Assembly: GCF_005780165.1 (NCBI RefSeq) | Contig: NZ_VAUV01000002.1 | Coordinates: forward strand, 186,001-250,000 | Source: Phragmitibacter flavus | Lineage (GTDB): Bacteria; Verrucomicrobiota; Verrucomicrobiia; Verrucomicrobiales; Verrucomicrobiaceae | DNA: 64,000 nucleotides | Direction of reading: 5' to 3' | Shown here: one piece after another, positions 45,818-60,179 of the stretch | Layout of the letters: every line of letters begins with the position of its first letter | How positions within the stretch are numbered: the first letter of the stretch is position 1 | The notes under the pieces: model-generated | Told to the model about the DNA's origin: nothing | Databases searched by the model: none | What the model saw: only the letters and a program-made list of their open reading frames with translations | Translations under genes and position numbers: made by a program

Positions 45818-46222
45818 TCAAGGAGTGCGGTCGGATGCCAGCCAGTTGCGCCAGCCGCCGAAGGAGGTGATGTCTTGGGCGGTTTCGGCGGCGATGGCTT
45901 CACAGATGAATCCGCAGACGGTGGTGCCGTCGGGAAGTGACACGCGGCCGAGTCCGAGGGGGGCGGCGATGGCTTCGAGAAAGTTGCCGAAGTTTTCGGC
46001 GGGCATTTGCCAGATTTCCATGGCGATGGCGGCACCTCCGGCGGAGACGCGGATCATGCCGGGGCGCGGTGGGATGCCGGGTTTGAGAGGCGGGAGATGG
46101 TAGAGCCGGTAGACGGAGGCGGAGAGGGTTTCTTCGACGAATTCGGCGTTGCGTTCAAGAAGTTGATGATTGAGGGCGAGGCCGCGCATGTGGGCTCCGC
46201 AGACGGCGAGTTTGATCATCAT
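45818..46222 (-). CDS. Allophanate hydrolase, C-terminal domain as a separate protein
   Basis: This 134-aa protein corresponds to the C-terminal domain of allophanate hydrolase (AtzF/DUR1 type): KLAVCGAHMRGLALNHQLLE, RLYHLPPLKPGIPPRPGMIR with VSAGGAAIAMEIWQM, and GLGRVSLPDGTTVCGFICEA with FGGWRNWL. In single-chain enzymes this domain completes the conversion of the amidase product to ammonia and CO2. Here it is a separate gene whose start ATGA overlaps the stop of the amidase gene by 4 nt. A frameshift could create such a split, but the reading frames are clean and the overlap is a typical coupling motif. Confidence 0.8.
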   Translation of the reverse strand: MMIKLAVCGAHMRGLALNHQLLERNAEFVEETLSASVYRLYHLPPLKPGIPPRPGMIRVSAGGAAIAMEIWQMPAENFGNFLEAIAAPLGLGRVSLPDGTTVCGFICEAIAAETAQDITSFGGWRNWLASDRTP

Positions 46223-47565
46223 TGGAGAGGAGTTTGGGCGTGGAAGGCGCTCGCTAGGACGGCGAGTTTGCGGTCGGTAAAGGCGGGGGCGAAGAAGGTG
46301 ACGCCCCAGGGCATGCCGCTGTCTTCGAGAAATCCTGCGGGCACGGCCCAGGCGGCCAGATCAAGGAGGTTCATGTAGTTGGTGTAGCGACCGAGGTTGG
46401 AGTTGAGTTCCACGGGGTTGTTGAGGACTTCTTCGACGGTGTAGTGGGTGCCGGCGGTGGGGGTGATGATGGCGTCAACTTCAGTCCAGGCGACTTCGCT
46501 GGCGCGGCGCAGTTCGGCGAGTTTGTATTGGGCGCGGAAGGCGTCGACGGCGGTGCCTTTGATGCCACCGCTGATGATTTTATAGGTGGTGGGATGCAGG
46601 GCTTCGGGTTGGGTGGTGATGAGGTCCTCGATCCCGGCGTAACGTTCCGCAACCCAGGGGCCTTCGTAAAGGAGCAGGGCGGCGTCGAGGAAGGGCTGCA
46701 GGTCCACTTCCTTGGTGGCGATGCCCATCGTTTTGAGGCGCTCGATGCTTTGGTCGAAGAGGGCGGCGGCGGCGCTGTTGCCGAAGAATTCGAGCTGGTC
46801 GGCGCGGGGGATGCCGACGATTAAATCGGTGACCGATTTGCTGGCGATGGGGATATCGGGGCGGGCGTAGGCGTCGGCGGGATCGAAGGTTGAAGCAACT
46901 TCGTAGACTTTGAGGGCGTCGTCGGTGGTGAGGGCGAAGATGGAGATGCAGTCGAGGGTTTTGCAGGCGGGGACGAGGCCGGTGTTGCTGAGCACGCCGC
47001 GGGTGGGTTTCATGCCAACGAGGTTGTTGAGAGATGCGGGGATGCGGCCGGAGCCGGCGGTGTCGGTGCCGAGGGCGAAGCTGCACAGGCCATTGGCCAG
47101 GGCGACGGCGGAACCGGAGCTGGAGCCACCGGGGACGTATTTTCCGTCGTAGGCATTTTTGGGAATGCCGTAGGGAGAGCGCACGCCGACGAGGCCGGTG
47201 GCGAATTGATCGAGGTTGGTTTTGCCCAGCGGTATGGCTCCAGCGGCGATCAGTTGTTCGACGACAAAAGCGGACTTCTCGGCAGTGTATTCAAAAGCGG
47301 GACAGGCGCAGGTGGTGGGTTCACCGGCTTGGTCGATATTGTCTTTGATGACGAAGGGGATGCCGTATAGGGGAAGGGCGGCAGGGGTCAGGTGTTCCAA
47401 GTGTCGCAGAAAGGCATCGACTTTGTCCCAAGTGGGACGGCTGATGAAGATGGCGGGATCAGAGGATTCGATTTCCTGCCATAGTTTTTCGATGATTTCT
47501 CGCGGAGTGGTGCTGCCGGATTTATAGGCCTGGAGCAGGGAATCGATGCGAAGGGAGGTGGACAT
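46219..47565 (-). CDS. atzF: Allophanate hydrolase, amidase domain
   Basis: This 448-aa amidase-signature enzyme has the Ser-cisSer-Lys triad: Lys74 in GIPFVIKDNIDQ, Ser148-Ser150 in PGGSSSGSAVAL and Ser172 in GTDTAGSGRIPA. The GTDTAGSGR block and the matching C-terminal partner at 45818 identify allophanate hydrolase. This enzyme degrades allophanate (urea-1-carboxylate) from urea carboxylase, pyrimidine or triazine breakdown. No urea carboxylase lies next to it, although urease genes are 6 kb away. The protein ends QTPLQ and its TGA overlaps the next ATG by 4 nt. Confidence 0.85.
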   Translation of the reverse strand: MSTSLRIDSLLQAYKSGSTTPREIIEKLWQEIESSDPAIFISRPTWDKVDAFLRHLEHLTPAALPLYGIPFVIKDNIDQAGEPTTCACPAFEYTAEKSAFVVEQLIAAGAIPLGKTNLDQFATGLVGVRSPYGIPKNAYDGKYVPGGSSSGSAVALANGLCSFALGTDTAGSGRIPASLNNLVGMKPTRGVLSNTGLVPACKTLDCISIFALTTDDALKVYEVASTFDPADAYARPDIPIASKSVTDLIVGIPRADQLEFFGNSAAAALFDQSIERLKTMGIATKEVDLQPFLDAALLLYEGPWVAERYAGIEDLITTQPEALHPTTYKIISGGIKGTAVDAFRAQYKLAELRRASEVAWTEVDAIITPTAGTHYTVEEVLNNPVELNSNLGRYTNYMNLLDLAAWAVPAGFLEDSGMPWGVTFFAPAFTDRKLAVLASAFHAQTPLQ

Positions 47566-47772
47566 GAAGTTTGGAGTTGAGCAGATGTCGTGCTAAGTGA
47601 CGGCATCGTGGCGAGATGTTCGGATGGTGCGAGGATTTTTTGGCGGATACCGGGGAGGAGTAAGAAGGAGGGAGGGTGAGTGTCACAAGGGGGGTGAATT
47701 CAATGTTGCTTGTCACAAGGATCGACTCGTCCTACAACCAATGAGCGAAGAAAGTGTGCTTCATTTAATTCT

Positions 47773-48804
47773 ATGAAAATCTCGTGGTGCTTGGTGATGG
47801 GTCCGTTGCTTGCAATGGCGTTGGTGGGCGGCTCTAAAGGGGCTGAGGATGTGCCGGGTTCGGCGGATCATGCGTTGCTTAAGCGGGTGACGGGGTCGCA
47901 CATCATGTGGTTCAACAAGGAGAAGTTTGACGAGTTGACGGTGGCTTTGCAGCGGGTGGAGTTTGACTACGACAAGCAGGTGATGAAGCCGACGAAGAGG
48001 GAAAAGCACGAGGGGGCTTTGACGACAGCCTATTACAAATTGCCGGGAGATACCTCGACTTTGGAGGTGGTGAGACAGTATGAGGCGGAGTTGAAGCCGG
48101 CGGGTTTTGAGGTGTTGTGGACGGCTTCGAATGACGAGTTGGATGACGGATATGGCCGGTTCATTGAAAGTATTTATCCGGTGATCGGCAAGACGGATGG
48201 ATTGAACATGATGCATGAGTTTAACAAGGAAGAGCGTCGTTATTCGGTGCTGAAGGGAGCGGACAAGGCGGGCAATACCGTGTTTGTGGCGTTGTATGCT
48301 TTTGTGATCAATGATGACAGCGGCACCGGGTTTGCGAAGTTGCAGGAGGACAACCATTTGAAGAAGGGCGACACGATTGTGCGTGTGGACGTGCTGGAGA
48401 CCAAAGCCATGGAGGCGCGAATGACGGTGGTGAAGGCGGCGGAGATTACGGATTCGATGGCGACCACGGGTCGGATCGCGATTTACGGGGTGTATTTTGA
48501 CACGGACAAGGCGGTGGTGAAGTCCGAGTCGGCTCCGTCACTGGTGGAAATGGCCAAGGCGATCAAGTCGGCGAAAGGCAAGGTCTTGATTGTGGGTCAC
48601 ACCGACAATGAAGGGGGCATGGAATACAACCAGGAGTTGTCGCAGCGTCGTGCGGCGGCGGTGATGAAGGCGCTGGTGTTGGAGCACGGGGTGGGCGCTG
48701 AGAAGATGATGTCGGTGGGGGTGGGGCTGGCGGCACCGGTGGCTCCGAATACGGATGAGGCCGGGCGGGCGAAGAACCGTCGGGTGGAAATGGTGGCGCT
48801 CTGA
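47773..48804 (+). CDS. OmpA-family outer membrane protein
   Basis: This 343-aa protein has a signal peptide (MKISWCLVMGPLLAMALVGG). The N-terminal domain of about 200 residues (GSHIMWFNKEKFDELTVALQ, then KHEGALTTAYYKLPGDTSTL) has the look of a DUF4892-type region. The C-terminal OmpA-like peptidoglycan-binding domain reads GVYFDTDKAVVKSESAPSLV, VLIVGHTDNEGGMEYNQELS and NRRVEMVAL. It likely links the outer membrane to peptidoglycan. The start is ATG 47773; the 207-bp upstream region is shared with the divergent allophanate hydrolase operon. Confidence 0.85.
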   Translation: MKISWCLVMGPLLAMALVGGSKGAEDVPGSADHALLKRVTGSHIMWFNKEKFDELTVALQRVEFDYDKQVMKPTKREKHEGALTTAYYKLPGDTSTLEVVRQYEAELKPAGFEVLWTASNDELDDGYGRFIESIYPVIGKTDGLNMMHEFNKEERRYSVLKGADKAGNTVFVALYAFVINDDSGTGFAKLQEDNHLKKGDTIVRVDVLETKAMEARMTVVKAAEITDSMATTGRIAIYGVYFDTDKAVVKSESAPSLVEMAKAIKSAKGKVLIVGHTDNEGGMEYNQELSQRRAAAVMKALVLEHGVGAEKMMSVGVGLAAPVAPNTDEAGRAKNRRVEMVAL

Positions 48805-48849
48805 GTGGTGAATTGTGGGTAGTGGTTGATGCGGGGGTGACATGGAGTT

Positions 48850-48877
48850 ATTAAAGTGATGGTTTTACTTCTTTAAT
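48850..48877. promoter_or_regulatory. Inverted repeat immediately upstream of the phosphatase start
   Basis: ATTAAAG and CTTTAAT (7-bp perfect arms) enclose 14 nt and are followed by TTT and the ATG at 48881. It may be the ompA terminator or a structure that controls the phosphatase start. Confidence 0.4.
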
Positions 48878-48880
48878 TTT

Positions 48881-49573
48881 ATGTCGCTGACCCGCATTTA
48901 TTTGATTCGCCATGGAGCCACGGTTTTAACCGCGGAGGACCGCTTTGCCGGGGCGACGGATGTGGAGTTGTCCGATGAGGGCAGGCATCAGGTGGGGACT
49001 TTGTCGGAGCGGCTGGCGGGACTGAAGGTGGCCGCAGTGTATGCTTCGCCGTTGGGGAGGACGATGGAGTCAGCTTCGATTTTGGCGAAGCCGCATGGAC
49101 TGGAGGTTCAGGCGCGTGAGGGGTTGAAGGAGATCTCCCATGGGCGCTGGGAGAGGATGACGCGGCATGAGGTGGAGGAGGCGTTTCCGGATGAGGCGGC
49201 GGCTTGGGATGAAGATCCGTTTACCTTCGCGCCAGAGGGTGGCGAGAGCGGGCTGGCGGTGACGGCGCGAGCCTTGCCGGCGTTGATCGAGATTGTGCGG
49301 GATCACGAAGGCGAGGCGGTGATCGTAGTGTCGCACAAGGCGACGATCCGGTTGTTGTTGAGCTCGTTGCTGGGGTTTGATCCGAGGAGGTATCGGGACA
49401 ATCTTGATCAGGATCCGGCGGGATTGAACATCGTGGATTTTAAAGATCCGGTGCGGGCGCGGTTAATTCTTTTCAATGACACGGCGCATTACTCAGATGC
49501 GTGCCTGATGAAGCCGGAGACGGCGGAATTGCGATTGTCCAAGTGGTGGAACAACCCTATCAAGAAAGGCTAA
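48881..49573 (+). CDS. Histidine phosphatase (phosphoglycerate mutase-like)
   Basis: This 230-aa protein has the RHG motif in TRIYLIRHGATVLTAEDRFA (catalytic His at residue 11), DVELSDEGRHQVGTLSERLA, VYASPLGRTMESASI and the second His in EAVIVVSHKATIRLLLSSLL. It is a cofactor-independent-type phosphatase of the GpmB/PhoE group. Possible substrates are sugar phosphates, adenosylcobalamin precursors or others. The stop codon TAA lies within the GGCTAAAGG repeat. Confidence 0.8.
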   Translation: MSLTRIYLIRHGATVLTAEDRFAGATDVELSDEGRHQVGTLSERLAGLKVAAVYASPLGRTMESASILAKPHGLEVQAREGLKEISHGRWERMTRHEVEEAFPDEAAAWDEDPFTFAPEGGESGLAVTARALPALIEIVRDHEGEAVIVVSHKATIRLLLSSLLGFDPRRYRDNLDQDPAGLNIVDFKDPVRARLILFNDTAHYSDACLMKPETAELRLSKWWNNPIKKG

Positions 49574-49608
49574 AGGATAAGGGCTAAAGGATAAAGGCCT
49601 GAGACTGA
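49567..49608. repeat. GGCTAAAGG tandem repeat, copy 2
   Basis: GGCTAAAGGATAA and related units occur in tandem, ending GATAAAGGCCTGAGA as in the copy at 32495. The phosphatase stop TAA is inside the first unit. Confidence 0.8.
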
Positions 49609-49634
49609 ATGGAGAATTGTTAGGTCGCGTTGAG

Positions 49635-50120
49635 TCACTCTTGAGTGGCTTCGGCGAGGAGGGCGCGGAGGTCGAGGGGATGGGTAAACATGGTGAGGCT
49701 TCCGTCGGGATTTTGTGGCCACTTCTCTTGAGGGAGATCCCAGTAGAGTTCGATGCCATTTTGATCGGGATCGGCCAGATAGATGGCGTGGCTGACACCG
49801 TGGTCGGAGGCACCTTGAAGGGGGATGCCGGCTTTGATGACGCGCTGGACGGCGTTGGCGAGGTCGGCGCGGGTGGGATAGAGGATGGCGACGTGGAAGA
49901 GGCCAGTGCTGTTGGGTGGGGGTGGCTGGCCTCCGGCGCTTTCCCAGGTGTTGATGACGATGTGATGATGATAACCACCGGCAGAGAGGAAGACGGCGCT
50001 GTTGCCGTAGCGGGTGGTGATGTCGAAGCCTAGCACGCCTTGGTAGAATTTTAGGGAGCGGTCGATGTCGGCCACTTTAAGGTGGACGTGGCCGATGCGA
50101 GTCTTTGCAGGAATGGACAT
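49635..50120 (-). CDS. VOC-family protein (glyoxalase/ring-cleaving dioxygenase-like)
   Basis: This 161-aa vicinal-oxygen-chelate protein begins GHVHLKVADIDRSLKFYQGV with LGFDITTRYGN, and continues VFLSAGGYHHHIVINTWESA, the GLFHVAILYPTRADLANAVQ block and GVSHAIYLADPDQNGIELYW. The His and Glu metal ligands of the CatE-like pattern are visible. The metal and substrate are unknown. It follows the MOSC gene by 4 bp on the same strand, so the two are co-transcribed. Confidence 0.82.
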   Translation of the reverse strand: MSIPAKTRIGHVHLKVADIDRSLKFYQGVLGFDITTRYGNSAVFLSAGGYHHHIVINTWESAGGQPPPPNSTGLFHVAILYPTRADLANAVQRVIKAGIPLQGASDHGVSHAIYLADPDQNGIELYWDLPQEKWPQNPDGSLTMFTHPLDLRALLAEATQE

Positions 50121-50124
50121 GTGA

Positions 50125-50766
50125 TTAGGGCTTTTGAAGGCGGGCTTCGATGGCTTTGCGGAAGAGGGGGGAGAGGGCTTCGATTTGAAGGGATTTTTCG
50201 AGGTCGTCGCGGGTGCCTTCGTGGAATTTGTAGAGTCCGAGGACGGTGCGAACGGTCATGGCGTTCGGATCGCGCTGGATGATTTCGATGGGGTCGCCGA
50301 CGGTGATGGTGCCAGGTTGGAGGACTTGATAATAGAGTCCGCTGTGGCCGCTTTCGAGAAAGGGTTTGAGTATTTCGGTGCTGCCGATTTTGTGCGCGAA
50401 CTTGGAGCAGGGGAGCCGGCAGCTGGTGACCTGGAGGACAACGCTGCCCATGCGGTGGATGTCGCCGACGAAGACCTCGGTTTCGAGGAGGCCGGAGGTG
50501 GTGAGATTTTCGCCGAAGGTGCCATGATGAAGGTGATCGCGATGCAGGAATTGTTGCCAGTGGGGGTAGTGTTCGATGGCGTAGCTGTAGACGGCTTGAT
50601 GGGGCCCGCCGTGAACGGTGAGGTCGGCCTGGGCGTCACCTTCGAGGCCGAGAGTATGGACGGCAACGGGATCGAAGACGGGTTCTTTGTAGATGCCGGT
50701 GGGGGCGTCTTTGCCGTTGATGTTGACGGTCTTGACGAGGGATCGGTTGATGGAGAGAACTTGCAT
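50125..50766 (-). CDS. MOSC-domain protein (YiiM-like)
   Basis: This 213-aa protein has the MOSC fold (molybdenum cofactor sulfurase C-terminal-like). It contains DGKxAPTGIYKEPV, HTLGLEGDAQADLTVHGGPH with QAVYSYA, the HGTFGENLTTSGLLETEVF block, and VTSCRLPCSKFAHKIGSTEI with its conserved Cys. The YiiM type reduces N-hydroxylated bases and may detoxify base analogues. It is divergent from the nuclease-translocase operon with 63 bp between the starts. Confidence 0.85.
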   Translation of the reverse strand: MQVLSINRSLVKTVNINGKDAPTGIYKEPVFDPVAVHTLGLEGDAQADLTVHGGPHQAVYSYAIEHYPHWQQFLHRDHLHHGTFGENLTTSGLLETEVFVGDIHRMGSVVLQVTSCRLPCSKFAHKIGSTEILKPFLESGHSGLYYQVLQPGTITVGDPIEIIQRDPNAMTVRTVLGLYKFHEGTRDDLEKSLQIEALSPLFRKAIEARLQKP

Positions 50767-50829
50767 GGCCGGGCGGGGTGGCGGGGATTGGTCCTTGACG
50801 GGATTAGTTCATCCGCCCACCAATGTGGC

Positions 50830-51519
50830 ATGAATGTGGATGGCAAACAACGGGAACGGTTGCTCGCGAAGTTTCGTGGCAAGGTGTCTTTGACGAAGAG
50901 TGGGGTTGGCACGTCGAAAGGGGTGCTTGAGACGTTGAGGGAGCTGATGGAGAAAGGCGAGGTGGTGAAGTTGGGAACGCATTATTTTTTGGCGGGATCG
51001 GCCCCGACGATGGAACGCGAAAAGTTGCGGCTGGACAGGATGTTGCGGGGGACGCACAAGTTGTTCAAGGGGGGCGCTTTGCGATTGTTGCCGAAGGTGA
51101 ATCTGCCAAGCACGCGGGCGGCGCTGGATGCGTTGGTGGACGAGCGGGTGGTGTTGAGGTTGGAGATTTTGAAGGACAAAAAGGCGGGGTTTCTTTATCT
51201 GCATAGTTGCCATGCATCGGCTGGAGTTGCGGGAGATATGGGGGAAGATTTGGGCGGAAGGATTCGGAGGGCCTATGGGTCACTGGTGAAGCAGTCGGCC
51301 AATCTTTCGGTCTTTATTGCAGATCTTGCGGTGGAGGCAGGATTGGAGACAAAAGTGTTGCAGGAATGGTTGCAAACGATGGTGGTTGAGCGAGGGCTTG
51401 GCACGCTTGATGAGGGGGATTGGTCGTATGCCTCCGAAGCGCAGCGAGCGGCGGCGATGGTGTTTCGTGACCGTCGCCGGCTCTATGTGCGGCTGCATGA
51501 GGAAGACCGTTTATCATGA
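50830..51519 (+). CDS. Unknown protein with winged-helix-like segments; first gene of the translocase operon
   Basis: This 229-aa protein has no recognisable named domain but looks like a string of DNA-binding helical units. Residues 1-55 (KFRGKVSLTKSGVGTSKGVL, ELMEKGEVVKLGTHYFLAGS) suggest a winged helix. Residues 85-130 (NLPSTRAALDALVDERVVLR) a second, and residues 158-225 (SVFIADLAVEAGLETKVLQE with GDWSYASEAQRAAAMVFRDR) a third. It is probably cytoplasmic and may bind DNA or recruit the downstream ATPase. The ATG at 50830 is the only start that fits; the long open frame upstream is antisense to the MOSC gene. Its stop overlaps the next gene by 4 nt (ATGA). Confidence 0.6.
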   Translation: MNVDGKQRERLLAKFRGKVSLTKSGVGTSKGVLETLRELMEKGEVVKLGTHYFLAGSAPTMEREKLRLDRMLRGTHKLFKGGALRLLPKVNLPSTRAALDALVDERVVLRLEILKDKKAGFLYLHSCHASAGVAGDMGEDLGGRIRRAYGSLVKQSANLSVFIADLAVEAGLETKVLQEWLQTMVVERGLGTLDEGDWSYASEAQRAAAMVFRDRRRLYVRLHEEDRLS

Positions 51520-53648
51520 ATCCTTTTGGTCGAGATATTGTCAAAAATCCCCGAGATCATCCGGTGACGGTGCGCACGTTGAACCTGGAGGTTTTGGACG
51601 GACTGGTGGCGGCGTTTGCACCGTTGGTGAGTGCGCCGTTGCCGCGTGAACCGCTGGCGGCGGGAAAGGCGCAATTGGTGTTGTCGCCCGCACCTGGGTA
51701 TGGGAAGAGTCACTTGATTGCGCGTTTGTATGAGTCGCTGGGCAAAGAGGTGAATGTGGTGGGGTTTAGTCCATTTCAGTCGGTGAGCTTGTGCTGGCAG
51801 TCGCTGTTGTTGCAGATGGTGAAGGAGATGAATGGTCCGGTGGAGGGCGAGGATTTTGGCAGGACGAGGCTGACGATGTGGGCGGAGAGTTTGGTGCGGT
51901 TGCTGGTCGCGGAGGCGTTGCGCGAGGGGTTGTTGCCGCATCCAGAGGCACCGATCGCGGAGCGTTGGGTGATGGAGCATTTGACGATTGGTCTAGAGGG
52001 GGATGAGGGGGGATGGAATCCGTGGTTGCATGAGTCTTTTTTTAAAGTGTGCCGTCCGGTGTGGCGGCGACTGCTGGCGCGGCGCGGGGTGTCGATGGAA
52101 GATGATGCGTGGTTGCTGGTGTTGTTTCATTATGCGTCCAGTGCGCCGTTTTCGGACAAACAGCAGCATTGTCTGGCGTGGTTGCGGGGGCAGAGTTTGG
52201 AGGAGGACGCACTGGCGGAGCTAGGGCTGGGTGCGTCACATGGTCGGGAGGCGGGGAGTGTGGATGCGTTGAACGAGTTGTGTCGTCGGAAGGTTCATGA
52301 GTGGTGTGGACTGGCGGCGTTTTATCGTCCGTTCTTGTTTTGTTTTGATCAGACGGAGGTTTATGCGCAGGACGACCGTCTGGCGAAAACGTTCGGTCGC
52401 GTGATCGCGGAACTGGTGGGAGAAGTGCCGCATCACTTGACGGTGGTGACGGCGAACCAGGCGGTGTGGGAGTCGAAGTTGCGTCCGGCGATGGATGTGG
52501 CGGATCAGCACCGGTTTCAGTTGTCGCAGGTGTTGCGCGGATTGGATCGTCGTGAGGGGGAGGAGTTAATTCGTTTACTGATCGTGGAACAGGCAGATCA
52601 ACGTGAGGCGTGTGGGCGGGTGACGGATGGGGAGTGGTTGTCGGGGTTGTTTCCAATGCCGGGGAGCAACATTCCTGCGCGTGAGTTTTTGCATCTTTGT
52701 CAGCGACGTTGGGAGGGAGGTGAGGTGAAGGGTCCGCAAAAGCTGGTGGTCTCGGTGAAGGTGGATCTGTCGGAGCGTTTCAACAGTTTGCGTGTGGAGT
52801 TTGCCGCGAATCCGCGTTTGCAGGAGTATGATCCGGACGTGTTTCGCTGGCTGGCGGAGGTGGGGTTGGTGCGTGGTCAGGATTTGGGATGCGTGCGGGT
52901 GGATCATCCGCATGGTTATGTGGAAATGAAGTGGCATGTGCCGGGGGAGGCGGTGGTGCGTTTCGGGTTTGCGCATGCGGTGTCGGATGATCACCGGGTG
53001 TGGAAGTCGCTGGCGATGTTTGCGCGGCAGATGAAGGAGCAGGACGGGGAGCCGGTGTCGAAGCTGGTGTTGTTTCGTCCGCCGCCACAGCAGCGTTGTG
53101 CGATCCCGAAGTCAACCTGGGTGGTGAATGGTCAGTTGATTGCTGAAGCGCGTCGTGATTGTTTGCAGTTGTTCGATCTGACGGCGGATGAGACGGCGGA
53201 GTTGTATGCGGCGCGCAAGCTGTATCTCGATGCGGAGGCCGGGGATCTGGAAGGCATGGGCGGTGCGGAGGTGATGGAGTTTTTGACCAAGCAACTGGCG
53301 TATTGGCGCACGCGATTGCTGGAAGTGGCGAAGGTTGATGTTGGAGACGTTAAGCAGGAGGCTCCGAGGCTGGTCGAAGTGGTGAAGGTGCAGCCGGAGG
53401 TGAAAACAGACAGGGCGGCGAAGGGGCGGTTGCCATTTGGTCGTAGGAATGCGGGTCAGCCGATGCCGCAGTTGGAGCAGCGGGTGCGGAGTTTTGTGAG
53501 GGACGAGCGGTTTGTCAGCCTCGAAGCACTGGTGGGTCATCTTGGTGCGGAGGTATCGACGGAGCAGGCGCTTGCGTGTTGTGAGGGACTCGGCGAGGTG
53601 CAGACGGAACGGTTGGAAAATTGCACGATTTTGATATGGCAAGGATAA
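51516..53648 (+). CDS. P-loop ATPase with possible C-terminal winged helix
   Basis: I do not recognise a named family for this 710-aa protein. It has an AAA/STAND-like nucleotide site: Walker A SPAPGYGKSH (Lys64, Ser65), a Walker B LFCFDQTE (residues 274-281) and a sensor-like TVVTANQAVW (309-318). Residues 390-560 form an uncharacterised region, and the last 60 residues (RVRSFVRDERFVSLEALVGH, then EGLGEVQTERLENCTILIWQ) look like a winged helix. It probably uses ATP to load, regulate or position the nuclease-motor protein of the next gene. Start ATGA overlaps the previous stop; the stop overlaps the following start by 13 nt. Confidence 0.65.
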   Translation: MNPFGRDIVKNPRDHPVTVRTLNLEVLDGLVAAFAPLVSAPLPREPLAAGKAQLVLSPAPGYGKSHLIARLYESLGKEVNVVGFSPFQSVSLCWQSLLLQMVKEMNGPVEGEDFGRTRLTMWAESLVRLLVAEALREGLLPHPEAPIAERWVMEHLTIGLEGDEGGWNPWLHESFFKVCRPVWRRLLARRGVSMEDDAWLLVLFHYASSAPFSDKQQHCLAWLRGQSLEEDALAELGLGASHGREAGSVDALNELCRRKVHEWCGLAAFYRPFLFCFDQTEVYAQDDRLAKTFGRVIAELVGEVPHHLTVVTANQAVWESKLRPAMDVADQHRFQLSQVLRGLDRREGEELIRLLIVEQADQREACGRVTDGEWLSGLFPMPGSNIPAREFLHLCQRRWEGGEVKGPQKLVVSVKVDLSERFNSLRVEFAANPRLQEYDPDVFRWLAEVGLVRGQDLGCVRVDHPHGYVEMKWHVPGEAVVRFGFAHAVSDDHRVWKSLAMFARQMKEQDGEPVSKLVLFRPPPQQRCAIPKSTWVVNGQLIAEARRDCLQLFDLTADETAELYAARKLYLDAEAGDLEGMGGAEVMEFLTKQLAYWRTRLLEVAKVDVGDVKQEAPRLVEVVKVQPEVKTDRAAKGRLPFGRRNAGQPMPQLEQRVRSFVRDERFVSLEALVGHLGAEVSTEQALACCEGLGEVQTERLENCTILIWQG

Positions 53649-55492
53649 ACGTGAGTCAGCTCAAGCAGGCGTGTGTGGATCGCGGATGGTTGGACCGCTG
53701 GTTGGATGATCCGGCCACGCCGGTTCCGATGCCCATGACTCCTGCGGGTGGGATACCGGTGAACGGACGTTTGTTTCATCAATTGGTGGCGGGATTGGTG
53801 CAGAAGCTGTGTGTGCCTGATGCGTCGGCGCCATTGTTGGCGTTGCGCAGTCGGGAGCAGATTTGGGCGCTGCTTTGGGATGAACTGGCGGCGGCGAAGG
53901 TTCAGGCGTTGGTGCGGAGTCAGTCAGCGGAGGCGGCCTTGCATCTGGCAGAGGCGTTGAAGGCGTGGTGTCAGCGGCTCGCGGAATTGCGGGCGAACTG
54001 TCCCAATTTTAAGAGCTGGCGGAGTGCGTTGTTGACGCATGAGTTTGACTTGAAACGGGTGGCGATTCAGGTGTCGGATGGCGGGGTGGTGGAGGTGAGC
54101 GGTCGGCCTGATTCCGTGCAGGTGGACCCGGTGCATGGGATTGTGGTGGTGGACTACAAACTTTCCCGTGGCAGCAATGGCACGTTGGATCTGCTGCAAC
54201 TGGCGATCTATGCGAGGATGTTGCGATTGGCGAAGCCGGGACTCAATTTTGCGGGTCTGCTGGAGTATTATGAACCTGGGTTGCATCTGGTGCCGAAGAC
54301 GGAGGCGCAGTTGAATGCGATCTTTGAGCATGAGGTGCAACCGGTGTTGGACCGAATTGCGGGACATGAAAAATTGATGTCGAAGTTGAAATCGGTGCAG
54401 GTCGGTCACGAGGCGGTGCGGCTGTCCTGGCAGCCGAAGGCGGAGCCGGATCTCGGTCGGGATATTGAGAAGGCTTATAATTCCTTTAAAGTGCCGGTGC
54501 AGGTGATGGGACGTGTGGAGGCGCCGCAACTGGTGCGGTATTTGATTAGGCCGGGACTGGGGATCAGCTTTGCCAAATTGCGTAGCAATGCGGTGAATTT
54601 GAAGATCCAACTGGGCCTGCACGCGGAGCCGCTGGTGATGCCCGGGTCGGGACATGTCATCTTTGATGTGGTGAAGGAGAAGCCTGACACCGTTTGGTGG
54701 CAGGATGAGGTGCAACGGGCGGAACTGACGGCTCATGCAAGCCCGCTTGCGCTGGCGCTAGGGGTTGACATCAACAACCGGCTGATTCTCGCGGACCTAT
54801 GTGATTCGAACACGGCGCATGCGTTGATTGGTGGTTCGAGCGGCAGTGGAAAGAGCGAGTTGTTGAAGTCATTGGTGGCGACACTGGTGAAGCGCAACCG
54901 GCCGGAGACGTTGCAGTTAACGTTGATTGATCCGAAACTGCTGACCTTTGGTGGCATTGTGGAAAATGCCTATCTCACGGGTCCGATTTTGCGGGACATT
55001 GAGGAGTCGTTGGCCTGTCTGCATCTGGCGGTGGAAGATATGGAGCGGCGATATGAAATCCTGTTGGCGGAAAATCATACCCGACTTGGTGATCGCATTG
55101 CTCAGGGGAAGACCGACCTTCCGTTCAGGGTGATCATTTTTGATGAGTTTGCGGATTTGATCAATAGTGGTCGTGAAGAGAAGAAGGAGTTTGAGCGGCT
55201 GACGAAGCGGCTGTCGGCGAAGGGTCGCGCGGCCGGGGTGCATCTGATCATTGCCACGCAGCGGCCGGACAAGGATGTGGTGACCGGGCAGTTGAAGGCG
55301 AATCTTCCAATGAAGATTTGTCTGCGGGTGACCAATGCGGTGAACTCACAAATTTTGTTGGATGAACCGGGGGCGGAACATCTGTTGGGTCGGGGGGATT
55401 TCTTAAGTCAGACAGGTTCAACGCCGGTGCGTGGCCAGTCGTTGTTCATCCCGCAGAAGGAATTTTTGGAGTTGTTTGCCGACAAGATTTGA
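53636..55492 (+). CDS. PD-(D/E)XK nuclease fused to an FtsK/SpoIIIE DNA translocase
   Basis: This 618-aa protein has two parts. The N-terminal RecB-type nuclease shows VNGRLFHQLVAG (His48), VSGRPDSVQVDP (Asp159), IVVVDYKLSRG (Asp173, Lys175) and LLQLAIYARML (188-193), the D...DxK...QxxxY layout. The C-terminal part, from about 297, is an FtsK motor: beta-domain APQLVRYLIRPGLGISFAKL, Walker A IGGSSGSGKSELL (Lys406), Walker B RVIIFDEFADLI (Asp503, Glu504), then IIATQRPDKDVVTGQLKANL and LDEPGAEHLLGRGDFL. The gamma DNA-recognition domain of cell-division FtsK and its N-terminal membrane helices are absent. It probably translocates along DNA and cuts it. The start is ATG 53636. A TTG at 53621 is in frame but lies deeper inside the upstream gene. 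Confidence 0.8.
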   Translation: MARINVSQLKQACVDRGWLDRWLDDPATPVPMPMTPAGGIPVNGRLFHQLVAGLVQKLCVPDASAPLLALRSREQIWALLWDELAAAKVQALVRSQSAEAALHLAEALKAWCQRLAELRANCPNFKSWRSALLTHEFDLKRVAIQVSDGGVVEVSGRPDSVQVDPVHGIVVVDYKLSRGSNGTLDLLQLAIYARMLRLAKPGLNFAGLLEYYEPGLHLVPKTEAQLNAIFEHEVQPVLDRIAGHEKLMSKLKSVQVGHEAVRLSWQPKAEPDLGRDIEKAYNSFKVPVQVMGRVEAPQLVRYLIRPGLGISFAKLRSNAVNLKIQLGLHAEPLVMPGSGHVIFDVVKEKPDTVWWQDEVQRAELTAHASPLALALGVDINNRLILADLCDSNTAHALIGGSSGSGKSELLKSLVATLVKRNRPETLQLTLIDPKLLTFGGIVENAYLTGPILRDIEESLACLHLAVEDMERRYEILLAENHTRLGDRIAQGKTDLPFRVIIFDEFADLINSGREEKKEFERLTKRLSAKGRAAGVHLIIATQRPDKDVVTGQLKANLPMKICLRVTNAVNSQILLDEPGAEHLLGRGDFLSQTGSTPVRGQSLFIPQKEFLELFADKI

Positions 55493-55506
55493 GGAGAGTG
55501 GTTGCG

Positions 55507-56115
55507 ATGAGCGGAGATCTGTTTGGTGCGGCGGATTACAGTGTGAATCTTTTACCTTCTGATGGAGAGGTGAACTATCATGGGCCAATTTTTGGAGTGG
55601 ATGAATGTGGACGGTTGTTTGAAAAGCTATTGGCCGAAGTTGCATGGCGGCATGATGAAGCGGTGATGTTTGGCAAACGGATTGTGACGGCGCGCAAGGT
55701 GGCTTGGTATGGCAATGAGGGGTTCAAATATACTTATTCGGGAACGACAAAGGAGGCGCTGCCGTGGTCGGACACGTTGAGGGAGATAAAGGCGAAGGTG
55801 GAGACGTTGAGCGGGGCGAAGTTCAACTCGTGTCTGTTGAATTTGTATCATCATGGCGAGGAGGGAATGGGCTGGCACAGTGATGATGAGAAGGAGCTGG
55901 CGCGGGATGCTGCCATTGCATCGGTAAGTTTGGGGGCGGCGCGGAAGTTTTGTTTCAAGCACAAGCAGAGTGGCGAGCGTGTGGACGTGGGGTTGGAGAA
56001 TGGGAGTTTGCTGGTGATGCTCGGGGCGACGCAGCGGTATTGGTTGCATCGGTTGCCACCGTCGAAGCGGGTGAAGGGGGCGCGTATCAACCTGACGTTT
56101 CGGTTGATGGCATAG
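55507..56115 (+). CDS. alkB: AlkB-like 2-oxoglutarate/Fe(II) dioxygenase
   Basis: This 202-aa AlkB-family enzyme has the iron site HSD (His124, Asp126) and distal His181 in YWLHRLP. The 2-oxoglutarate Arg is Arg193 or Arg199 in GARINLTFRL. It has the family block FNSCLLNLYHHGEEGMGWHS and the upstream RKVAWYGNEGFKYTYSGTTK. AlkB oxidatively removes alkyl lesions (1-methyladenine, 3-methylcytosine) from DNA or RNA. The ATG at 55507 is preceded by GAGGAGAG with good spacing. It starts 14 nt after the stop of the nuclease-motor gene, indicating the same transcript. Confidence 0.9.
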   Translation: MSGDLFGAADYSVNLLPSDGEVNYHGPIFGVDECGRLFEKLLAEVAWRHDEAVMFGKRIVTARKVAWYGNEGFKYTYSGTTKEALPWSDTLREIKAKVETLSGAKFNSCLLNLYHHGEEGMGWHSDDEKELARDAAIASVSLGAARKFCFKHKQSGERVDVGLENGSLLVMLGATQRYWLHRLPPSKRVKGARINLTFRLMA

Positions 56116-56192
56116 TTTGAAGCAAGCCAAATGGGAGGTTGATGAAGCCCCCTGTGCGGAGATCCGGCAGGCTGCGCGGCCCGGTTTTTGAG

Positions 56193-57764
56193 CTACTTCC
56201 CAGGGAAGAAGCGGGCGACGGTTGCCTTGGTGGGGGGGCGGGTGAGCAGGGAGACGATGACGAGGGAGAGGGCGGACAAACCGGTGATGATGGCGACGGG
56301 CATCATGCCGAAGATGAGGAGCTCGTCGGCACCAGGGGGTTTGGTGGCGATCATGTCGCGGTAGAACAGGATGCACCAGGTGATGGCGGTGACGAGGACG
56401 GCGGCGATGGCTCCTGCGGCGGTGGTGCGTTTCCAGTAAACGGCTCCAAAGACGATGGGGAAGAGGGCGGAGAAGCCGGTGAAGCACCAGACGCCGAGGT
56501 CGAAGACGTGGGCGCTGTCCTTGAGCCACATGGCGAGGGCATAAGTGACGGCGACGATGAGGAGGATGAAGGCGCGGCCGATGAAGATCTTTTGGGCATC
56601 CGTGTAGGGGCGTTTGGAGACGCGCAGGACGATGTCGGTGGTGAACATGGTGCCGAGACAGACGAATTGGGAGTCGAGACTGGACATGATGGCAGCGAGC
56701 ACGCCGGCGGCGACAAGGCCGGAGAGGACGGGGGAATGAACGAGTTCATTGACCATGCGTCCGAGCACCATGTTGGGGTTTTGGCCGGGGCCGAGGGGGC
56801 CGAGGAAGCCGGCGGCCCACATGCCGATGAGGATGCAGGGGACCCAGACGATCATGATGAAGATCGGGTGGGCGACGACGGTGAGGCGGAAGCTTTTGGC
56901 GGAGCGGGCGGTGAGCCAGTGCTGAAAAAGGTGGGGGAACATGCCTACGGAAAGGGGGATCATGCAGTAGGTGAAAAACTGCAGGTGGCCCATGTTGCCT
57001 TCGCGGGCGAGGCGGGGGCTGGCGAAGTCGCTGTCGACGACCATCTGGGTGGCGGCGGAGAGTCCGCCGAGGCGCTGGCTGATGAGGTAGAAGGCGATGA
57101 TGCCGCTGCCCATGAAGACGACGGTTTGAAAAGCGTTGGCCCAGACGGCACCGCGCAGGCCGCCGAGAAAGACGTAGAAGAGGACGACGAGGCAGATGAG
57201 GAGGCCGCCCCACTCAGCGGGGAAACTGCCATTGAGGGGGTGGGGTTTGCTGCTGCCGTCGGGCAGGATGAGGTCGGCGATGGGAAACATTTCCGGAAAC
57301 ATGCCGGCGGTGGCACCTTGAAGAAATTTACCCGCGGAGATGACGCCAACAAGAAGGTAGGGGATGACGAGAAGGACGAGGATGGGGAAGAGGAGATAGG
57401 CGAGGCGTGGAGATTCGAAACGTTCGCGGAAATATTCGCATTGGGTGAGGTAGCCGTATTTTTTGCCGACGGCCCAGAGTCGGATGCCGATGAGAAAGAA
57501 GACGGCGCTGTGGACAAGGCCGGACCAGGAGGCCATCATGCCATACACGCCAATGCCGGTGGAATAGGCTTTGCCGGTGGAGCCAACAAGGGCGAAGCCG
57601 GTCATGGTGGTGCCGAAGATGGAGAGGAGCAGGAGGATGGGGCCGACATTGCGGCTGACGACGAAGAAGTCGGCGCTGGTGCCTTTGGAGAAGCTGCGGC
57701 TGATAAGGCCGAGGGCGATGAGGAGTCCGAAATAACCGAGGATGATCCAGAAGGTGATGGGCAT
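56193..57764 (-). CDS. SSS-family sodium:solute symporter
   Basis: This 523-aa protein has about 13 membrane helices in the sodium:solute symporter pattern, with FGTTMTGFALVGSTGKAYST near the N-terminus, FYVFLGGLRGAVWANAFQTV in the core and LAAIMSSLDSQFVCLGTMFT towards the end. The substrate may be an organic acid, sugar, amino acid or other solute. The DUF3311-like gene upstream (57831) on the same strand is the usual small partner of such transporters. The gene is convergent with alkB, with 77 bp between them. Confidence 0.88.
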   Translation of the reverse strand: MPITFWIILGYFGLLIALGLISRSFSKGTSADFFVVSRNVGPILLLLSIFGTTMTGFALVGSTGKAYSTGIGVYGMMASWSGLVHSAVFFLIGIRLWAVGKKYGYLTQCEYFRERFESPRLAYLLFPILVLLVIPYLLVGVISAGKFLQGATAGMFPEMFPIADLILPDGSSKPHPLNGSFPAEWGGLLICLVVLFYVFLGGLRGAVWANAFQTVVFMGSGIIAFYLISQRLGGLSAATQMVVDSDFASPRLAREGNMGHLQFFTYCMIPLSVGMFPHLFQHWLTARSAKSFRLTVVAHPIFIMIVWVPCILIGMWAAGFLGPLGPGQNPNMVLGRMVNELVHSPVLSGLVAAGVLAAIMSSLDSQFVCLGTMFTTDIVLRVSKRPYTDAQKIFIGRAFILLIVAVTYALAMWLKDSAHVFDLGVWCFTGFSALFPIVFGAVYWKRTTAAGAIAAVLVTAITWCILFYRDMIATKPPGADELLIFGMMPVAIITGLSALSLVIVSLLTRPPTKATVARFFPGK

Positions 57765-57769
57765 GACGG

Positions 57770-57817
57770 AAAGGATAAAGGCTAAAGGATAAGGGCTAAA
57801 GGATAAGGGCTAAAGGA
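57770..57817. repeat. GGCTAAAGG tandem repeat, copy 3
   Basis: Units GGATAAAGGCTAAA and GGATAAGGGCTAAA are repeated in tandem in the space between the DUF3311-like gene and the symporter start. The repeats related to it lie at 32495 and 49567. Confidence 0.8.
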
Positions 57818-57830
57818 ATGCGGAAATTAA

Positions 57831-58064
57831 TCAGGACTTTTTGTCGCTGGCTGGGACAGGCTCATCGGCCCAGGCTTCGATTTCGCTGGGCCAGGCATGG
57901 CGGATGGCGAAGAGCCAGAGCGAACCGGCGGCGATGGAGAAGCCAATGTGCCAGGCGAGGCTGATGGGAAGAAATCCGAGGACGATGCTGCCGTCATTCC
58001 ACCACCAGAAGTCGTGGTGAAGAGCGAAAAGAAGCCAGAAGATGATCCAGGTGAGCTTGCGCAT
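57831..58064 (-). CDS. DUF3311-like small membrane protein, symporter partner
   Basis: This 77-aa protein has two predicted helices (KLTWIIFWLLFALHHDFWWW and LAWHIGFSIAAGSLWLFAIR) and a polar C-terminal tail. The HxDFWWW motif and its place next to an SSS transporter match DUF3311-type companions. It is thought to assist transporter function; the mechanism is unknown. It is separated from the symporter gene by the tandem repeat at 57770. Confidence 0.75.
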   Translation of the reverse strand: MRKLTWIIFWLLFALHHDFWWWNDGSIVLGFLPISLAWHIGFSIAAGSLWLFAIRHAWPSEIEAWADEPVPASDKKS

Positions 58065-58211
58065 GAGGAGGAATAGATTGGGAGGGAGGGAAGGTTACGC
58101 GGCGGGACGGGGCTTTCTTGACAAGATTGAACATTACTGCCACTGGATGGGGTCAATTGGACAGGTTTTTTTGGTAAGTTGCGGGTCACTGGCTTCGTTG
58201 AAGGACAGTTT

Positions 58212-59507
58212 ATGGTGAGAATGTTACGAAATTTTTTGATGGCGTTGGTGGGCGGTCTTGGGTGGGTTCTGTCTGCCGGGGCTGAGTCTCCGCCGAATGT
58301 GGTGCTGATTGTATCGGATGACCATCATTGGGGGGACTATGGATTCATGGGGCACGAGGTGGTGAAGACGCCGCATCTGGACAGGCTGGCCGCGCAGAGT
58401 GTGACGTATCCGCGTGGGTATGTGCCATCCAGTTTGTGCTGTCCGAGTCTGGCAACGATCATCTCGGGGTTGTATCCGCATCAAAACTTTATCACCAGCA
58501 ATGATCCGCCGGTGGTGGGGGGGAAGAAGCGCAGGGATTTGAAGGATCCGGCGTTTGTGGCGGGGCGGGAGCGGTTCAATGAGCACATGGACAAGCTGGC
58601 GACTTTGCCGAGGTTGCTCGGGGCGAAAGGGTATTTGAGTTTCCAGACGGGCAAGTGGTGGCAGGGGGATTTTACGCGCGGGGGTTTTACGCATGGGATG
58701 ACGAAGGGGTCGCGCCATGGGGACGAGGGATTAAAAATTGGTCGCGAGGGGATGCAGCCGGTGGTGGATTTCGTGGATCATGCGATGGCGGAGAAGAAGC
58801 CGTTCTTGGTGTGGTATGCGCCGTTGTTGCCGCATGATCCGCACACGCCGCCAGAGCGCTTGCTGGAGAAGTATCGGGACAAAACGCCGTCGATTCATGT
58901 GGCGCGTTATTGGGCGATGGTGGAGTGGTTTGATGAGACCTGCGGGGAGCTGATGCAGTTGTTGGAGGATCGCAAGGTGGCGGAGAATACGCTGGTGATT
59001 TATGTGTGCGACAACGGCTGGATCCAGAGTGAGGACAAGAAGGTTTTTGCGCCGAGATCGAAGCAGAGTCAGTATGACGGAGGATTGCGGACGCCGATCA
59101 TGGTGCGTTGGTTGGGCAAGGTGGAGCCGCGCAAAAGTGAGGCGGTGGTGAGTTCGATTGACATTGCCCCGACCGTGTTGAAGGCGCTGGGGATCCCGGT
59201 GGTCGAAGGGATGCAGGGGGTGGATTTGCTGGATGAAGCGGCGGTGGCGTCGCGCAAGACGGTGTTTGGGGAGATCTTTACGCATGACTCGCAGGATTTG
59301 GAGGTGCCTGGGGCGAGCTTGCGGTGGCGGTGGGTGATTGATGGTGATGACAAATTGATTGTGCCCGATGCGAGGAATGAGCCGGATGCGGTGGTCGAAC
59401 TCTACGATCTGGTGAAGGACGTGGATGAACGCAACAATTTGGAGGGGGAGAGACCTGAGAGGGTGAAGGAATTGACGGCGAAGCTGGATGCATGGTGGAA
59501 GCCATGA
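58212..59507 (+). CDS. Secreted sulfatase with non-canonical CCPSL motif
   Basis: This 431-aa protein has a signal peptide (FLMALVGGLGWVLSAGAES). The sulfatase fold follows: NVVLIVSDDHHWGDYGFMGH (metal Asp-Asp), KTPHLDRLAAQSVTYPRGYV and the active-site loop VPSSLCCPSLATIISGLYPH. The formylglycine motif C-x-P-S-R reads Cys76-Cys-Pro-Ser-Leu80, with Arg to Leu, as in a subgroup with CRPSL sequences that I recall from related bacteria. Later blocks VWYAPLLPHDPHTPPERLLE and LVIYVCDNGW are intact. It probably desulfates glycans, with uncertain efficiency. The start is ATG 58212. Confidence 0.82.
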   Translation: MVRMLRNFLMALVGGLGWVLSAGAESPPNVVLIVSDDHHWGDYGFMGHEVVKTPHLDRLAAQSVTYPRGYVPSSLCCPSLATIISGLYPHQNFITSNDPPVVGGKKRRDLKDPAFVAGRERFNEHMDKLATLPRLLGAKGYLSFQTGKWWQGDFTRGGFTHGMTKGSRHGDEGLKIGREGMQPVVDFVDHAMAEKKPFLVWYAPLLPHDPHTPPERLLEKYRDKTPSIHVARYWAMVEWFDETCGELMQLLEDRKVAENTLVIYVCDNGWIQSEDKKVFAPRSKQSQYDGGLRTPIMVRWLGKVEPRKSEAVVSSIDIAPTVLKALGIPVVEGMQGVDLLDEAAVASRKTVFGEIFTHDSQDLEVPGASLRWRWVIDGDDKLIVPDARNEPDAVVELYDLVKDVDERNNLEGERPERVKELTAKLDAWWKP

Positions 59508-59516
59508 GGGGGGAGA

Positions 59517-59586
59517 CCGACGGAACGTCGGTGGACCGAAGAGCTTGGACTGACGGGCTCTTTGCCGACGACAAGTCGGCGGTCCA
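59517..59586. repeat. Palindrome cluster downstream of the sulfatase
   Basis: The hairpins CCGACG-GAA-CGTCGG (59517-59531) and GCCGAC-GACAA-GTCGGC (59564-59580) are paired by inverted sequence with GGACCG...GAGC and GCTC...GGTCC. The element is a compact repeat, possibly also a terminator, between the sulfatase and FMN-reductase genes. Confidence 0.55.
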
Positions 59587-59633
59587 TGGGTCGGTGGTCG
59601 AAAGCTTGTGTCGGGAGCGTGGGTGAGGTATGG

Positions 59634-60179
59634 ATGGGGATGATCAAGATCCTCGGTATCTCGGGCAGTTTGCGTAGGGGCTCCATCAACACGGCATTGT
59701 TGCAGGCGATGGTGGAGGCGGGTGGAGATGAAGTTTCGGTGGAGGTGAAGACGTTGCATGGCATCCCGCTTTATGATGGGGATGTCGAGGAGGCGGAGGG
59801 CATTCCTGCGGCGGTGAGTAAGCTGGCGGAAGCGATGCGTGCGGTGGATGGGGTGATCTTTTCGACGCCGGAATACAACAACTCGATTCCCGGGGTGATG
59901 AAGAATGCGGTGGACTGGTTGTCGCGATTGGATGACGACGTTTTTGCGGGCAAGCCGGTGGCTTTGGTGGGAGCTTCACCGGGGGGATTTGGGACGATTC
60001 TTGCACAGGATGCGTGGCTGCCGGTGTTCAGGACTTTGGGAGTGAAGTTCTGGGCAGAGGGCAGGTTGCTGGTGTCGAAGGCGGGTGGGGTGTTTGATGA
60101 AAATGGCAAGATGGTGGATGAGCGGATGAAGAAGAAGGTGGGGGAGTTTGTGGAGGGGTTTGCGAAGTTTTTGGTCTGA
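59634..60179 (+). CDS. NAD(P)H-dependent FMN reductase
   Basis: This 181-aa flavodoxin-like protein starts MGMIKILGISGSLRRGSINT, the phosphate-binding P-loop of NADPH-dependent FMN reductases. It carries GVIFSTPEYNNSIPGVMKNA, the flavin-contact motif, and LVGASPGGFGT. Such enzymes reduce FMN, azo dyes, quinones or chromate. The start is ATG 59634 or 59640. The gene lies upstream of the MhqO/MhqD-like pair, which would fit quinone or aromatic stress, but a palindromic repeat separates them. Confidence 0.82.
   Translation: MGMIKILGISGSLRRGSINTALLQAMVEAGGDEVSVEVKTLHGIPLYDGDVEEAEGIPAAVSKLAEAMRAVDGVIFSTPEYNNSIPGVMKNAVDWLSRLDDDVFAGKPVALVGASPGGFGTILAQDAWLPVFRTLGVKFWAEGRLLVSKAGGVFDENGKMVDERMKKKVGEFVEGFAKFLV

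Follow-up and report, generated by a model that had tools for sequence, protein, structure and literature searches.

A candidate Orc/Cdc6-coupled nuclease-FtsK module in Phragmitibacter flavus

The operon and its three products

The window analysed here is a stretch of 64,000 nucleotides from the verrucomicrobial bacterium Phragmitibacter flavus (assembly GCF_005780165.1, contig NZ_VAUV01000002.1, positions 186,001 to 250,000 of the forward strand). It contains an operon of three genes on one strand, in which a gene for a winged-helix-type protein is followed by one for an Orc/Cdc6-type AAA+ ATPase and then by one whose product joins a predicted RecB-type nuclease to an FtsK motor. Adjacent genes overlap by 4 and 13 bases, respectively. 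The features, numbered from the first letter of the window, are as follows (wHTH, winged helix-turn-helix):

50830 to 51519, forward strand: winged-helix-type protein of 229 amino acids with an inferred start codon; three putative tandem wHTH-like blocks recognized by eye
51516 to 53648, forward strand: Orc/Cdc6-type AAA+ ATPase of 710 amino acids, with P-loop GYGKS (61-65) and invariant CFDQ.E (276-281)
52758 to 53324, forward strand: middle alpha/beta domain of the ATPase, residues 415-603, delimited from model secondary structure and alignment A8
53466 to 53639, forward strand: putative C-terminal winged-helix-like unit of the ATPase, residues 651-708 (H-E-H-H-E-E, high confidence in the model)
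53636 to 55492, forward strand: complete nuclease-FtsK gene, 618 amino acids
53636 to 54301, forward strand: N-terminal RecB/Cas4-type PD-(D/E)XK nuclease domain, residues 1-222 (H48, E136, D159, D173, K175, Q188, Y192)
54419 to 55489, forward strand: FtsK alpha and beta motor, residues 262-618 (K406, D503-E504, ATQRP, LDEPGAEHLLGRGD)

An initial annotation, made from the letters of the window alone, had singled out the third gene as encoding both nuclease and motor in one chain. This description holds: the frame is uninterrupted from its ATG at 53636 to the stop codon ending at 55492, Pfam assigns FtsK_SpoIIIE (7.1e-30), and the family profile leads to AdnAB and Cas4. Every residue named at that time is in place, namely D159, D173, K175, QLAIYA (Q188-A193), K406, D503-E504, ATQRP (540-544) and LDEPGAEHLLGRGD (575-588). 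The hallmarks of cell-division FtsK, its membrane segments and gamma domain, were likewise said to be missing; the N-terminus is indeed occupied by the nuclease, and Pfam matches neither a gamma nor a further extra domain on the window protein. A separate FtsK is encoded elsewhere in the same genome (contig C14, open frame of 912 amino acids). The annotation overlooked both operon partners, and it is the Orc/Cdc6-type ATPase with its winged-helix companion that identifies the system.

Judged by motifs and family profile, the first ~220 residues are a nuclease of the RecB/Cas4/AdnAB type. Taken by itself, the window sequence gives a weak signal (1.9e-4 and 7e-4 with Cas4 models), and Pfam gives no match to this domain on its own. 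A nuclease profile of 13 relatives compared with the PDB retrieves AdnAB (3.9e-8), Cas4 (4ic1, 3e-5) and EXO5 (4.5e-4), where 6ppu and 4ic1 are the entries that we take to be AdnAB and Cas4, and PDDEXK_1 of Pfam is matched in 11 of the 13 family members. The RecB-family set of H, D, D/E-x-K and Q-x3-Y is present in the motifs and in the family profile. Strand and helix order in the model agrees with the PD-(D/E)XK fold; the fold search bears on the part of the protein beyond residue 260. Alignment A3 has 12 rows, of which 10 keep all seven motif positions; the other two are L163, which has no such domain, and L167, in which the motif is eroded. The chance figure for motif conservation, 3e-6, is partly circular because alignment A7 excluded three loci with eroded motifs. 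A homologue on a Pseudanabaena plasmid displays one early and three late cysteines in a Cas4/AddB-like arrangement, possibly an iron-sulfur site.

The C-terminal 350 residues are, from profile and predicted structure, a soluble FtsK motor consisting of alpha and beta domains. The match of the window protein to FtsK_alpha (0.0012) lies below the cut-off, while two relatives reach 4.2e-8 and 2.3e-9. The motor model superposes on Pseudomonas aeruginosa FtsK with Z 43.4 over 351 residues (root-mean-square deviation, rmsd, 2.4 Å). For the whole protein, the mean predicted local distance difference test score (pLDDT) is 86.9 and the predicted template modelling score (pTM) 0.57, so that the model is no reliable guide to how nuclease and motor are arranged. 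In a tree of motors, the FtsKs of the module cluster together (support 81/69 with 14 rows and 99/97 with 12 rows), and outside this group fall SspH (100/100) and the dnd-cassette FtsKs (99/99). Deep support in this tree is modest, and L167 sits on a very long branch in an unsure position.

The AlphaFold model of the ATPase (mean pLDDT 83.3) runs from an AAA+ core through the alpha/beta domain (415-603) to a winged-helix-like C-terminus. As modelled, it is a protein of the Orc/Cdc6 fold: the top ranks in VIA-align are Cdc6/Orc chains, the best match being Cdc6 1fnn (Z 15.0, 231 residues, rmsd 3.9 Å), followed at lower scores by TnsC (13.1), BrxC (12.7) and NSF/p97 (~12). Foldseek returned nothing for the ATPase at E<=0.001. 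Neither list of VIA matches covers the nuclease or the ATPase middle domain, the ATPase list spanning residues 1-415, and both lists are neutral on these two domains. The middle domain has no profile match in the PDB, and it is possibly the 'inactive REase' (restriction endonuclease, REase) of a published class of systems discussed below, since the model has an REase-like order of strands and helices in which a conserved acid/Lys motif was not found. The winged-helix protein shows a weak profile match in the PDB to the tandem winged helices of SelB (E 0.01).

Eight genes on both sides of the operon were scanned, encoding amidase, OmpA-like, phosphatase, glyoxalase, MOSC, AlkB-like, symporter and sulfatase proteins; no modification or CRISPR gene is among them. 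The gene for the AlkB-like 2-oxoglutarate-Fe(II) oxygenase (55489-56115) lies directly downstream, with either a TTG start that overlaps the FtsK stop codon or an ATG at 55507. It was considered as a fourth component and dropped because relatives in the host's family carry AlkB without a strong match to the module: strong AlkB homologues (E<=1e-60) occur in 12 of 39 other family genomes, and no other genome of the family has a strong ATPase match. A conserved empty site was not demonstrated in the family relatives, where the MOSC and AlkB homologues lie on different contigs or far apart. Throughout window positions 46000-60000, GC skew has strongly positive values (roughly +0.26 to +0.40 per kb), regardless of gene strand.

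Distribution, fusions and nuclease loss

The ATPase is sparsely spread. Its profile matched 47 of 384 genomes of the class at E<=1e-6, and near-full, strong matches (E<=1e-78) number 15 of 384 in our reading of the result table; in a sample of the phylum, 7 of 387 genomes matched at E<=1e-30. The initial annotation had proposed a search for proteins of the same domain order. The gene order of the operon recurs: the Pseudanabaena plasmid, from another phylum, carries the identical three-gene arrangement. A single-protein search of genome contigs gave one FtsK, from Macrococcus. The nuclease-FtsK profile marks 80 loci, and at E<=0.01 the ATPase is found in none of them (the best value is 0.041, at one locus); marginal nuclease-profile matches (5e-5 to 3e-4) occur at three of these loci, outside the matched FtsK frames.

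Eighteen loci were read: the window, L035-L039, L044, L159-L168 and L170. L169 (G484) was dropped before this count, its ATPase being broken by an in-frame stop and adjoined by no parts of the module, and G483:C117 (471 amino acids) was excluded. Other ATPases were set aside, comprising those of 674-697 amino acids in G437, G420, G426 and G429, a second one in G262, and shorter partials in genomes of f1 and f2 and elsewhere. No adjoining nuclease or FtsK of the module family was found at L171-L173. A distant relative of the ATPase on a Synechococcus elongatus plasmid (L047, 7458-11424) stands beside genes for TIR-domain and macro-domain proteins.

Ten of the 18 loci encode the ATPase in one chain with the nuclease, the motor or both, which makes a joint complex likely. 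A gene of the winged-helix family lies upstream in 13, the window included (the window's protein is thus homologous to the upstream gene in 12 of the 17 others); of the five without a match, L038 and L044 each have a small unmatched gene at that position and L161 stops at a contig end, the last two being L167 and L170. The motor is FtsK in 14 loci (in L159 split over two frames), HerA in L168 and a RuvB-like AAA protein in L170, and L164 and L165 have none. In L170 (4510-7926), a single protein of 1138 amino acids unites an ATPase of the module family, a RecB-type nuclease and the RuvB-like motor. L168 (8260-15492) encodes an ATPase of the module family and a nuclease fused to HerA, and then a Cas3-like helicase/HD gene. 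The fused module of L037 (4227-7333) adjoins a gene for an FRG-domain protein and genes read by eye as Ku and ATP-dependent DNA ligase.

Conservation of the nuclease motif in close homologues, on which the initial annotation had staked its assignment, is found in part. The motif is intact in 13 of the 18 loci, but it is eroded in L164, L165 and L167 (all seven positions changed in the last), and L039 and L163 lack the domain. L163 is the closest relative of the window in the ATPase tree, where the two pair at 100/100, and L039 falls among the family f4 fused forms, with L159 as its partner (100/99). Long branches lead to L170, L044, L038 and L167, and the deep forks are unsure. Since L163 and L039 stand apart in this tree, at least two losses of the nuclease are apparent, gains being the less likely alternative. 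Cutting by the nuclease domain therefore cannot be the sole useful output of the module.

Proposed role and rival explanations

Rakesh, Aravind and Krishnan (2024; PMC10853773) describe, in the main text of their study, gene neighbourhoods that couple HerA/FtsK to an Orc/CDC6 ATPase and propose that these intercept invader DNA. The idea of such 'HerA/FtsK capture' is repeated in part of a later paper on BREX (PMC12839542). We read the P. flavus operon as a stand-alone, three-gene anti-invader module of this Orc/CDC6-coupled kind, with a probability of about 0.7. This reading draws on the patchy spread, the overlapping gene order, the ATPase fusions, the recurrence of the order in another phylum, the Orc/Cdc6 fold of the ATPase, the alpha domain of the FtsK motor, the RecB-family nuclease and a parts list like that of the class; exchange of the motor for HerA or a RuvB-like AAA protein is also in line with capture.

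Sequence and model show intact nuclease and FtsK ATPase motifs, an Orc/Cdc6 fold, and genes that are coupled and, at some loci, fused. In the mechanism that these parts suggest, the winged-helix protein and the ATPase would seek out foreign double-stranded DNA, clamp it and assist in loading an FtsK ring, presumably a hexamer, onto the invader. With its motor residues present, the ring would pump DNA using ATP, and the RecB/Cas4-type domains, tethered at the alpha-domain end of each motor subunit and with their catalytic residues in place, would cleave or resect the incoming DNA. The initial annotation had suggested that cutting is linked to translocation, which is a fair inference from the fused chain. 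Since no self-marking gene was found beside the operon, what is recognized would probably be a DNA state (ends, replication, transfer or packaging), not a modification mark.

Several observations weigh against a role of this kind. The anti-invader function of the class is itself a prediction in the main text of the founding study (PMC10853773). All eight scanned neighbours in the window are ordinary genes, and defence is hinted at by just two of 10 neighbour genes scanned at the relatives, the Cas3-like helicase of L168 and the FRG protein of L037. No PADLOC model matched the window's ATPase or winged-helix protein. With the nuclease missing in two loci and eroded in three, not every version can depend on cleavage by it. 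A possible, though clearly less favoured, view is that the ATPase and winged-helix protein form a general loading platform for varied ring motors (FtsK, HerA, RuvB-like AAA) with the nuclease optional, the core of defence being the motor that strips, blocks or moves invader DNA and not the cut. This view leans on the nuclease-free versions L039 and L163, which it holds to be still at work.

Outside defence, the module could be a machine for repair of DNA ends, a bacterial counterpart of HerA-NurA or AdnAB in which the RecB-type nuclease acts on double-strand ends and is powered by FtsK, not by a helicase. The nearest solved relatives of the nuclease (AdnAB, Cas4 and EXO5), the abutting AlkB-like repair gene, the putative Ku and ligase genes at L037 and the RuvB-like motor of L170 all speak for it. 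We consider it unlikely, given that the module is very patchy, that the nuclease is lost or eroded in five of 18 loci, that AlkB and the module do not travel together in the host's family and that AlkB is not among the 10 neighbour genes scanned at the relatives. Still less probable is a module for segregation or transfer of plasmids or mobile elements, with the nuclease as a resolution or processing activity. FtsK/TcpA-type motors do serve DNA transfer and one relative resides on a plasmid typed as conjugative, but neither a relaxase nor a recombinase was found among the scanned neighbours of the window and the relatives. Plasmid records amount to four for the Pseudanabaena ATPase (itself included) and two very weak ones for that of the window, and no plasmid or phage place covers 80% of the nuclease-FtsK protein. 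A search of viral contigs with the ATPase profile gave no hit, which also speaks against this reading and led us to reject a viral origin.

The best PADLOC label for the window, SspH (E 7.7e-52), raises the restriction half of the phosphorothioate system SspFGH, which is likewise a three-gene set that includes a Walker A ATPase and a protein ending in FtsK (PMC8092258). This match spans only the FtsK part (model positions 1469-1752 of 1766), true SspH proteins at L176 and L177 are open frames of 1763 and 1817 amino acids with different partner genes, SspH lies outside the module group in the motor tree, and no SspBCD-like gene was found among the eight scanned window neighbours. An SspFGH identity is thus highly improbable, and the label was dropped after comparison with these two true sspFGH loci and the motor tree, neither the SspF/SspG partners nor an SspH-type protein having been found in the operon.

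The module favoured here, an anti-invader one, is compact, with three genes or two when fused and a nuclease of known type. Its natural nuclease-free and motor-swapped relatives offer a direct test of whether protection comes from motor-coupled cutting or from the motor alone.

Relation to known systems

The initial annotation regarded nuclease and motor as usually separate proteins, which is true in part. HerA works with a separate NurA, while RecB, AddA and AdnAB are themselves nuclease-motor fusions. AdnAB/AddAB/RecB and HerA-NurA resemble the module in tying a nuclease to an ATP-driven DNA motor, and among solved structures the AdnAB nuclease comes closest to the domain described here. The AdnAB motor is a superfamily 1 helicase, and we know of no Orc/Cdc6 partner in any of these systems. 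The generalization also fails for DndH, in which, according to the main text of the capture study, an REase stands beside a HerA/FtsK motor in one chain, with wHTH and nucleotide-binding partners (PMC10853773). The DndH motor domain (7es4) superposes on the window motor model with Z 20.6 over 214 residues (rmsd 3.1). DndH differs in its size of ~1,700 amino acids and its inactive SWI2/SNF2 and methylase domains, and its partner DndF is a P-loop kinase, not Orc/Cdc6 (PMC10853773). Cassettes of the order dndC - small protein - dndD - FtsK (~510 amino acids) are found on a Rhizobium plasmid (L040, 6104-11062) and a Burkholderia plasmid (L046, 4103-9059), and their FtsKs form their own clade.

SspFGH shares the plan of three genes with an ATPase and an FtsK-tailed protein; it differs in that its proteins are others, with an FtsK clade of their own, and that it works with phosphorothioate genes (PMC8092258). 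The SspH proteins of L176 (5761-11052) and L177 (8740-14193) carry, upstream of the FtsK part, an E-x-K motif seen by eye (SEAKY and TEAKF, respectively), which may be a further nuclease.

The closest correspondence is with the capture class. In the main text of PMC10853773, its parts are an ATPase with an inactive REase between the AAA+ core and a C-terminal wHTH, an active REase, a HerA/FtsK motor that in one set includes FtsK-alpha, and, in a subset, a gene with two to four wHTHs. The nucleases named there are two REase families, one of AbiJ type, and a 3'-5' exonuclease fused to HerA/FtsK. Operon and class share the Orc/CDC6-type ATPase and the FtsK-alpha motor, and probably also an active nuclease and a winged-helix gene; in both, domains move freely between single-chain and multi-chain forms, and the motor type is exchanged (PMC10853773). 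In the operon, the nuclease is an intact PD-(D/E)XK of RecB/Cas4/AdnAB type, which may correspond to the second REase family of the paper, and the place of the multi-wHTH gene may be taken by the small conserved gene that precedes the ATPase. That main text uses none of the terms RecB, Cas4 and RuvB, whereas a RecB/Cas4-type nuclease and a RuvB-like motor are found here; titles and abstract openings in the open-licence PMC literature yielded no paper about this nuclease-FtsK fusion. Given its fit to the published class, the kind itself is not new, and the operon is probably a variant of these predicted capture systems (PMC10853773).

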